64,000 nucleotides of DNA from Spiroplasma culicicola AES-1 (lineage in GTDB: Bacteria > Bacillota_I > Bacilli_A > Mycoplasmatales > Mycoplasmataceae), in NCBI RefSeq assembly GCF_000565175.1, contig NZ_CP006681.1, positions 496,001 through 560,000 of the forward strand. The letters are read 5' to 3'. Shown here in pieces: positions 42,793 through 47,853 of the stretch (positions are counted from its first letter, which is position 1; every line of letters begins with the position of its first letter). The position numbers and the translations under genes were made by a program. Below the pieces are notes generated by a model. It was not told where the DNA came from. It made no database searches and saw only the letters and a program-made list of their open reading frames with translations.

Positions 42793-43608
42793 ATGCAAAA
42801 AGAGATGATCTATTTACCTATACATGAATTTGTCCAAGCTAATTTGGACTTCAATATTGCTTCAACAAGAAAAGATTCAGAATATGATTTCAATTTTACA
42901 CGTTGAAAAACATTGATTTTTTCAAGTCAAAAACTGAAGTTTGTTTTAAAATATGCACAATCAGTTTTACAATGATTAAGTAAAGTTGTTGATGTTAAAA
43001 ACTTTAATGTATCAATTGATACAACAACAGTTGATAGATTCAACTTCTCAATTTATGAATTTGATACTCATATCTTCAACTGTAGTTTATTTACAAACTT
43101 CTACTTAATTCCAGAAGGAGATTGAGCTTCAAAAATCTTTGAAATGCATTTTTCAAAATTTGACTTAATTAATGGTAATTTAACAACAACTGAACAAACA
43201 AGCTTTTGAAAAGGTGAAGAAGGTTTTGAAAAATTTGTAAACATGCTTTATGCAATTATGAAAGAACCTTACAAATTTGAAAAACAAGCACCAATTCAAT
43301 GACAAGTTGACTTTAAAGATAAAAAATTATCAAGTTCACAAATTAGAATGCAAATTGCTTCACTTGTTCAAACTGGAATTAGACCTGAAGATCCATATTT
43401 AACAATTGAACAAGCAATGAAAATTGAACAAGGAGCAAATCCTGATGTGGTTGCACAAGAAGCAAAAGCTGAAAGTGAACAAAAACAAGTTATCAATCCA
43501 ATTTGAGATGAAGCAATTGAACAAGAAACAAAATATAGAGATTTAAACTTCGCAATGGCAAAATCTCGTGGTATTGATCCAAATAAACAAAAAAAGAAAA
43601 GAAAATAA
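42793..43608 (+). CDS. Hypothetical soluble protein
   Basis: This encodes 271 residues, interrupted by many TGA-encoded Trp (for example at 42904 and 42973). The middle is rich in aromatic residues (FDTHIFNCSLFTNFYLIPEG) and the C-terminus is charged, ending KQKKKRK. There is no signal peptide or membrane segment. AAGGGGA is the likely ribosome-binding site, and a consensus promoter and a terminator make it a single-gene unit. I do not recognise it. Frequent C-ending codons such as AAC and TTC in the middle suggest fairly high expression. Confidence 0.85.
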
Positions 43609-43620
43609 ATAATATAATTG

Positions 43621-43647
43621 ATACATCTACTAAGGATGTATTTTTTA
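43621..43647 (+). terminator. Rho-independent terminator
   Basis: ATACATC pairs with GATGTAT and is followed by six T residues. Confidence 0.8.
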
Positions 43648-43660
43648 TTGTTTTACTATT

Positions 43661-43730
43661 TTGGTTGAAAATGGTTGAAAAATATTATTTTTGGTTGTTT
43701 TTGGTTGTTTTTTAAAATAAAGGGTATAAA
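43661..43730 (+). promoter_or_regulatory. fru operon promoter with four phased TGGTTG repeats
   Basis: TGGTTG occurs at 43662, 43672, 43692 and 43702, i.e. at 10, 20 and 10 bp spacing, always on the same face of the helix. The fourth copy overlaps the -35 region (TTGGTT, 43701-43706) of a promoter whose -10 is TATAAA (43725-43730). This layout fits an operator bound by the DeoR-type regulator encoded next; binding is inferred. Confidence 0.7.
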
Positions 43731-43750
43731 ATAAAAAATGAGGTGTAAAT

Positions 43751-45408: not shown

Positions 45409-47853
45409 ATGGAATTAAAAGATTTATTTCATAAGCAAATTGCCTTCTTTAATGAAGATTTAAAAACTAAAGAAGAAGTTATTGACTTTTTAGCTTCAAA
45501 ATTAGTAAAAGCAAAATTTGTTAAAGATGAAAGTGAATTTAAAGATGCGGTTTGAAAACGTGAAAATCAAGATTCAACAGGAATTGGAGATGGAATTGCT
45601 ATTCCTCACGTTTTAAATCCAACTGTAAATTCTTCTGCAATTGCTTTTGTTAAATTAAAAAACGAAATTGATTGACAATCATTAGATGGTAAACCTACAG
45701 ATTTAGTGTTTATGATCATGACAAACGGAAAAGATGGAAATGAACATTTAGAAGCATTGGCAAATCTTTCTGGATTCTTAGTAAAACAAGAAATTCAAGC
45801 AGGGTTAAGAAATGCCAAAAGTGTAACTGAAGTTCAAAACTTATTATCAACTAAAATTGAAAAAACAAATAAAGTTAGTGCTGATGGACATTATGATGTA
45901 ATTGCAATTACAGCATGTCCTACAGGAATTGCTCATACTTATTTAGCTGCAGAAAAAATTGAAGAATATGCTTCTAATTTAGGAATGAGCGTTAAAGTTG
46001 AAACTCAAGGAAGAAGAGGAGTTGAAAATAAATTAACAAAAGCAGATATTGAAAATGCCAAAGTTATTATTTTAGCTCACGATAAAGCAATTAACGGTAT
46101 GGCAAGATTTAACGGAGTTAAAGTTCTTGACACTACTACAAAAGATGCAATTTACAATGGAAAAGATTTAATTGAAAAATTTGATAAAAATCAAAATGTT
46201 AAATTAGTTGAAAATGCAAAAGATGACAGTGATGATTCAGTGGGTGAATTATCATTAACACAATTTAAAAAAGTTAAAGATAACTTACTAGCAGGGGTTT
46301 CAAGAATGTTGCCATTCGTTGTAGCTGGTGGAGTTATTTTAGGATTTGGATTCCTTTTAGATTATATTTATACAACAGCAATGGGTATGACAGCCATCGC
46401 AAATATTAGTGATTATGTCACAAAGGTAATGGGAATATCTCAAGCAGAATATAATGAGGTATATCAATACATTAGTACACCTGGATTTGATCCAGAAAAT
46501 TCATTATCTATAACATGAAACTTATGAAATAATAAATTTGGAGAATTTAATGGTCAAGCAGGATGAACAATTGGAGCAGATGAATCATTGTATTATGCTG
46601 CTGGTTCATTTGGAACAATTTGAGGACCAGCTCATTTCTTCTCAGGAATTGGTAAAGTTGGTATGGAATTAATGATTCCAATTCTTGCAGGTTATGTATG
46701 TTACTCAATTGTTGGTCCTCAAGGATTAATGGTTGGAGCAACTGCTGGTTTATTTGCAAATGGAAATGGTATGGTTTATGGAACACCTGGTTCATGAGCT
46801 GGGGCTTGAAGTAGATTCTTACCAGATAACATTCAAGGTTTATCATCTGGATTTATTGGAGCATTAGTTGGTGCATATTTAGGTGCACTTGCAGTGTATG
46901 GATGAACTAAATTAATGAAAAACTTTGGTAAAGGATTACAAGGAGCACGTGACATCGTGTTTATTCCAGTATTATCACTATTATCTGTAGCAATTATTAT
47001 GTTAGCAATTAATATTCCTTTAGGATATGTAATGTTAGGATTACAAGAAGGAATTACATTTATGGCAGAAAAAAACTTAATGTTTATTGTATGTACAATT
47101 ATTGCCTTAATGATGTGTGTTGATATGGGTGGACCAATTAACAAAATTGCGTATACTTTAGGAGTATTGTCAGTAGGTTATGGATTGGTTAAAGATCCAA
47201 ACTCAGTTGCATATGCAAATCAAACAATGATTATGTCAGCTGCTATGGCTGGGGGAATGATTCCTCCATTGGGAATTGCAATTTCAACAGTACTTTTCCC
47301 AAGACAATGAACTGCTAAATCAAAAGATTCAGCAAAAGCAAACTGATTAATGGGAGCATGTTTTATTTCAGAAGGTGCAATTCCATTTATGATTGAAGAT
47401 CCAAAAAGAATCCCTGTTTCTGCAATGATTGGGGGAGCAATTAGTGGTGCTATTATTGGTGCATTACAAGTTACAATTGCAGCACCACATGGAGGAATCT
47501 TTGTTGTGCCATTAACTAACTCATTATTATTTGAAAGTGCATCAATGGCCAAAGCATTTGGAGTAGCTGGATACTTATTAGCAGTAGTTGCTGGTTCAGT
47601 TGCAATGGGAATCGTATTAGGTTTCTGAAGATTGGCAGATATTAAATCTGGAAAATTGGCATTAGCAACTTCAAATGGAGTTAAAGAAAGTATTGAAGCT
47701 AAAATTGCAAAATTTGCAAACAATGAATCAAAATTGGCTAAATACAATGAAAAATTAAATAAATACAACAAATTTGAACAAGATTTAAAAGCAAAACAAT
47801 TGGCTTATCAAAATCAAATGACTGAAAAAGCTAAATTAAAAGCTAGTAAATAA
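45409..47853 (+). CDS. fruA: Fructose-specific PTS transporter IIA-IIB-IIC
   Basis: This encodes 814 residues. In the IIA domain, GIAIPH contains the phosphohistidine at residue 67. IIB has ITACPTGIAHTYLAAE with the phosphocysteine at residue 170. IIC follows from about 280, with GIGKVGMELMIPILAGYV, VCTIIALMMCVDMGGPINK and FISEGAIPFMIEDP as typical segments. A Lys-rich coiled tail of 60 residues ends the protein. It imports fructose as fructose 1-phosphate. Several TGA codons are Trp. GGAGAGG is the ribosome-binding site, 12 bp after fruK. A terminator follows. Confidence 0.95.

Follow-up and report, generated by a model that had tools for sequence, protein, structure and literature searches.

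The regulator gene fruR heads a fructose operon in Spiroplasma culicicola AES-1, and four copies of the hexamer TGGTTG stand in the short region before it. Are these repeats an operator, and if so, what would bind to them and with which effect? We analyzed the locus within a window of 64,000 nucleotides from the host genome, a single contig of 1.175 Mb. A sequence-only reading of this DNA had described the copies as phased direct repeats at the promoter of fruR-fruK-fruA and had proposed a DeoR-type regulator as their binder. Pfam indeed places FruR in the DeoR family, with an N-terminal HTH_DeoR domain (PF08220, 40.6 bits, cut-off 21) and a C-terminal DeoRC sensor domain (PF00455, 136.7 bits, cut-off 31.8). 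The family search identified the fruK product as a hexose kinase of the 1-phosphofructokinase group, which scored 277 bits against TIGR03828, below the cut-off of 292. The three genes are separated by gaps of 2 and 12 bp and form one predicted operon; TGA is read as tryptophan within the open reading frames. The gene upstream (42793-43608) had no Pfam or NCBIfam family match. In several congeners, the reading fragments that precede the array end alike (AMAKSRGI...), and the position of this gene beside fruR thus seems conserved.

Table 1. Features of the fru locus (window coordinates).
Feature	Position	Strand	Basis or detail
Intergenic region, upstream gene (stop 43608) to fruR	43609..43750	+	142 bp
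Terminator-like hairpin of upstream gene, then T run	43620..43642	+	9-bp stem, -10 kcal/mol, z -2.9
Repeat unit 1, TGGTTGAAAA, distal pair	43662..43671	+	sequence, Tandem Repeats Finder; layout also in G178
Repeat unit 2, TGGTTGAAAA, distal pair	43672..43681	+	sequence, Tandem Repeats Finder
Skipped 10-bp slot, ATATTATTTT, without GG core	43682..43691	+	sequence
Repeat unit 3, TGGTTGTTTT, proximal pair, kept in most of the genus	43692..43701	+	sequence, congeners
Repeat unit 4, TGGTTGTTTT, proximal pair, holds putative -35	43702..43711	+	sequence, congeners
Putative -35 hexamer TTGTTT, inside unit 4	43705..43710	+	sequence, comparison with relatives
GGG, its GG (43723-43724, AAAGGGTA) in the same 10-bp register	43722..43724	+	20 bp from the GG of unit 4
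Putative -10 TAAAAT, 16-bp spacer; alternative TATAAA at 43725-43730	43727..43732	+	sequence, relatives, inference
Ribosome-binding site GAGGT, conserved	43740..43744	+	sequence, relatives
fruR, DeoR-family regulator, 234 aa	43751..44455	+	PF08220 HTH_DeoR 2.1e-10, PF00455 DeoRC 8.9e-40
fruK, 1-phosphofructokinase, 312 aa	44458..45396	+	TIGR03168 2.9e-83, above cut-off
fruA, fructose PTS EIIABC, 814 aa (code 4)	45409..47853	+	TIGR01427, TIGR00848, TIGR00829 above cut-off

The TGGTTG copies were found exactly where they had been placed, at 43662-43667, 43672-43677, 43692-43697 and 43702-43707, spaced by 10, 20 and 10 bp inside the gap before the operon. They had also been said to stand in exact helical phase; the distances are indeed multiples of 10.0 bp, but not of 10.5 bp. 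Tandem Repeats Finder returned two perfect period-10 arrays (43662-43681 and 43688-43712), and because the slot between the pairs is skipped, the array is built as 2+2 rather than as four adjacent units. Short words of low complexity are found in an AT-rich genome, and the perfect units (TGGTTGAAAA twice and TTTTTGGTTG 2.5 times) resemble duplications, as would be expected of a repeat without function that arose by slippage or chance. However, when the 142-bp region was shuffled 20,000 times with dinucleotides preserved, at least four copies of TGGTTG arose in one shuffle, at least three in 13 and a 10-bp pair of any kind in three. No TTGGTT pair 10 bp apart was observed on either strand of the window other than that at 43691/43701.

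The overlap of the repeats with the -35 region is supported, since TTGTTT in the last repeat precedes TAAAAT by 16 bp and the same layout recurs in relatives. A last unit with TTGTTT, 16 bp and a -10-like hexamer (TATTAT in many relatives) is shared by the window and its congeners, as is a GG in the +20 slot between -35 and -10. As in the FruR operator of the L. lactis type, the array thus overlaps the -35 box, here that of a predicted promoter. The consensus promoter scan did not list this TTGTTT/TAAAAT promoter, and the hairpin at 43620-43642 was not listed by the consensus terminator scan, which requires three G-C pairs. The hairpin closes the upstream gene immediately ahead of the array.

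We compared FruR orthologs across the family and read the DNA before fruR at 46 loci in ten genera. Conservation of the phased repeats in relatives, which had been named beforehand as the test of the sequence-only reading, was evident in this set. Same-strand TTGG pairs occurred 53 times at 10 bp (shuffle expectation 0.5), 29 times at 20 bp and 21 times at 30 bp, with at most three pairs at each other distance. Within 60 bp, 105 of 129 such pairs were 10, 20, 30, 40 or 50 bp apart, as compared to a mean of 2.1 and a maximum of 7 in shuffles. The self-match at lag 10 reached z = 66, against -0.9 upstream of 42 control genes in the window, and 10 was the best lag in 41 of the 46 regions but in only 2 of the 42 controls; since related species are not independent, all these figures measure the strength of conservation and not a formal probability. 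The 117 phased units have the consensus TTTTGGTT[G/T]T, of which only the flanks are free evidence, TTGG having been the selection criterion. Further GGs between -60 and -11 from the last pair lie on multiples of ten in 29 cases and elsewhere in 12, and a GG at +20, often as TTTTGG, is found in 15 of the 38 loci with a phased pair. The motif is kept while FruR identity drops to 39% and the spacers vary. With phase and position retained in diverged relatives from ten genera, and with the near-exclusivity to fru loci described below, slippage or chance is hardly credible.

A/T tracts phased at 10 bp curve DNA, and the spacers between units are mostly T-rich (TTGTTT in 22 and TTTTTT in 19 of 51). 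The array could thus be a bend or an UP element for RNA polymerase, with no protein reading the GG. We consider this very unlikely, as the GG is retained in several species where the spacer has changed to TTGTAA or TTTATT, the array is absent from other promoters, and the arrays of other DeoR genes are built on different cores.

The number of units varies among relatives. The closest one, G178, has the same 10-20-10 layout, and the distal pair in this layout is common only to G178 and the window, a narrow distribution that speaks against our reading of the array given below. Four adjacent units were observed in G200 and G202 and five in G162. In G180 (L018/L101), a second TTGG pair, with its copies 164 and 154 bases before fruR, stands approximately 100 bp farther upstream than the promoter-proximal triple and is a possible looping site. 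FruR searches across the phylum and the class returned mostly the same family, and the comparison outside the order thus covers two genomes, G325 and G549. The former, a distant class member, has four 10-bp repeats of the TTGAAA type (TTGAAARAWW) before fruR, and no 10-bp repeats were evident in the latter.

The array is nearly exclusive to fru loci. The 18-mer TTTGGTTGTTTTTGGTTG, with at most one mismatch, gave 18 matches in 17 of the 20 congeneric genomes, the additional match being the distal pair of G178. All 18 are located upstream of fruR, and in these genomes the predicted operator has no second target, as in the L. lactis type. The three congeners without a match are those with an array on the opposite strand; the reversed 18-mer pattern had no match in the 20 genomes. 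A looser 17-bp pattern was found at the fru locus in 40 of 60 family genomes, several of them with a broken fruR and one (G176) counted from its position and a fruR-like start only, with no protein match; it occurred elsewhere in only six. In eight genomes no FruR, intact or broken, was found at the threshold used, and none of the eight has an array. TTTTGGTTTTTTTTGGTTTTTTTGGAGAATTTTCCGA is common to G204 (L162, C2:244800-247500, position 493) and G205 (L163, C1:809500-812000, position 2045, minus strand), where it precedes an ORF that starts with MLLA and does not match fruR, fruK or fruA; these sites may be an extra target or belong to another regulator.

The gene fruR is interrupted or truncated, with the array persisting upstream, at L164 (G162), L154 (G166), L155 (G167), L156 (G169), L157 (G176), L021 (G192), L028 (G198) and L100 (G170). 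In G176 the gene was not recovered by protein match. The arrays at these loci are complete or have one spacer changed, which suggests repeated recent loss of the regulator. They also count against an operator for FruR, as they show either recent decay or another binder.

The repeats had further been described as direct rather than palindromic. This is correct within arrays, but in three congeners (G182, G187 and G196) and in G153 the distal array lies on the opposite strand and reads CCAA; close to the promoter, these genomes have a unit that is forward or weak. Their recognition helix has changed little or not at all, suggesting that the unit can be read either way relative to the promoter. 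As judged from the sequences, the direct-repeat rule holds within one array and not across the whole operator.

Taken together, we infer that the array is the operator of the fru operon and is bound by its own FruR, which would occlude the promoter until released by fructose-1-phosphate (F1P); we put the probability of this reading at roughly 80%. Each 10-bp unit (TTTTGGTT[G/T]T) would present its GG core to one recognition helix on the same face of the DNA. Units 3 and 4, the pair overlapping the -35, would hold adjacent FruR protomers, one every 10 bp. Upstream of them, beyond the empty slot, units 1 and 2 would serve as an auxiliary pair, and the edge of the -10 may carry one further, weak site. 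The recognition helix P-x-T-T-L-R-R-D-L is retained in nearly all of the FruRs compared. Binding at the -35 and -10 should exclude RNA polymerase, hence the repressor model: bound FruR would block the polymerase, and F1P produced by FruA would weaken the binding of FruR, leading to induction of fruRKA. F1P is the effector of FruR repressors (PMC2222622). Consistent with an operator, 10-bp arrays also precede DeoR paralogs whose recognition helices differ from that of FruR, and there the cores are different ones.

The same operator could have the opposite sign, with FruR as an F1P-dependent activator that binds on or upstream of the -35 and recruits the polymerase. We keep this rival, although we consider it unlikely, because the title of a paper on S. 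citri (Gaurivaud 2001, cited in PMC10765703) presents its FruR as a putative activator. According to the account in PMC8140453, a fruR mutant of S. citri lost expression of all three fru genes; this mutant may be polar, as an insertion in the first gene can be. Genomes that probably belong to the S. citri clade (g8) carry the same TTTGGTTGTTTTTGGTTA array, and the distal pair is placed where an upstream activator could bind. However, overlap of the units with the -35 is seen throughout, and the final TTTTGG in g7 directly adjoins the apparent -10, an arrangement that a classical activator does not have. Moreover, FruRs of the DeoR type are repressors in L. lactis, S. gordonii and S. aureus (PMC2222622, PMC10765703), and DeoR sites that overlap promoters in C. 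bescii were interpreted as repressor sites (PMC8579813).

The 10-bp spacing is not confined to fruR. The best lag was 10 upstream of 25 of 37 other DeoR-type genes (z = 42), with no other strong lag except its double. One DeoR paralog lies divergently to a gene that resembles a class II aldolase, a name that is our reading of the sequence and not the result of a family search; before this paralog, up to six 10-bp units of TTTAAACTTT were observed (L125, G178:C1:221900-222433; L126, L116, L118 and others). The recognition helix of this paralog lacks the RR of FruR. Other DeoR families have the cores TTCTACAAAA, ATTCAAA and TATCCAAA, and the recognition helix differs in parallel with the core, a qualitative pattern in few groups that was noticed after looking. 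In the host genome, TTTACAATTT occurs twice, followed by TTTGCATTTT, in a 10-bp array before the DeoR-type gene at 762996 (minus strand; L003, G000:C1:760894-764496). The DeoR-type gene at 757226 (minus strand; L002, G000:C1:755076-758726) is preceded by an inverted repeat, TATCTAAAAATGATA...TATCATTTTTAGATA, and no 10-bp array, and no clear array was seen at the paralog L004.

It may be that the DeoR-type regulators of this order share one operator grammar, to which we attach about even odds. The arrays would be directional with a fixed pitch of 10.0 bp, and the core (TTTGGTT for FruR, TTTAAAC for the aldolase-linked paralog, TTCTACAAAA, ATTCAAA, TATCCAAA and others for the rest) would follow the recognition helix. 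Such a grammar would imply that the protomers join head to tail in an oligomer along one face of the DNA. PDB searches yielded no solved structure of such an oligomer. To our knowledge, few operators are known in mollicutes. The fru operator is compact, nearly single-target and conserved enough for direct testing, and the lag-10 signal provides a simple way to find operators of the DeoR family in these genomes. The structural question is how a winged-helix oligomer reads half-sites of the same direction every 10 bp.

Among known systems, CggR is a tetrameric repressor on direct repeats. As a member of the SorC family it differs from FruR in its HTH family and its sugar-phosphate ligand. The FruR structure model, a confident one (pLDDT 91.4), showed a weak fold match (E 1.7e-6) to CggR on its DNA operator (PDB 8r3g), the likeness being mainly in the effector domain, and CggR is thus a possible structural model. 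Among solved folds, the nearest was that of E. coli DeoR (7l6l), which covers the effector domain, and a PDB search for the DeoR family returned only this domain and no DNA complex.

The S. aureus FruR is also of the DeoR type and was footprinted at -85 to -40, adjoining the -35; its promoter differs from the one studied here in that, according to the authors, neither of the two FruR motifs described so far, one of them the four 10-bp repeats, is present in it (PMC10765703). In S. citri, as here, a mollicute fructose PTS operon is headed by a DeoR-type FruR (Gaurivaud 2000, 2001), but the gene order is fruR-fruA-fruK (PMC8140453) as compared to fruR-fruK-fruA, and FruR was proposed, by the 2001 title, as an activator where we favor a repressor. 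No published operator for the S. citri FruR was found in the literature searched.

The closest parallel is L. lactis, where a DeoR-family FruR is likewise encoded first in an operon, together with genes for 1-phosphofructokinase and the fructose PTS, and non-palindromic 10-bp direct repeats upstream of fruR overlap the -35 box. As cited in PMC10765703 and PMC2222622, FruR of L. lactis depends on four adjacent repeats (Barriere 2005). Four units are also present here, but arranged as 2+2 with a skipped slot and thus not strictly adjacent; the core is TTTTGGTT[G/T]T, the L. lactis operator being compared by its description only, and, unlike in L. lactis, the orientation of the array is reversed in some relatives. 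Tandem-repeat sites have also been predicted for DeoR regulators in Caldicellulosiruptor (PMC8579813). Given the four adjacent repeats needed in L. lactis, the operator type is not new and the finding is a mollicute variant of it; what is new is the skipped slot, the core sequence, the species with an array on the opposite strand and the wider 10-bp pattern.
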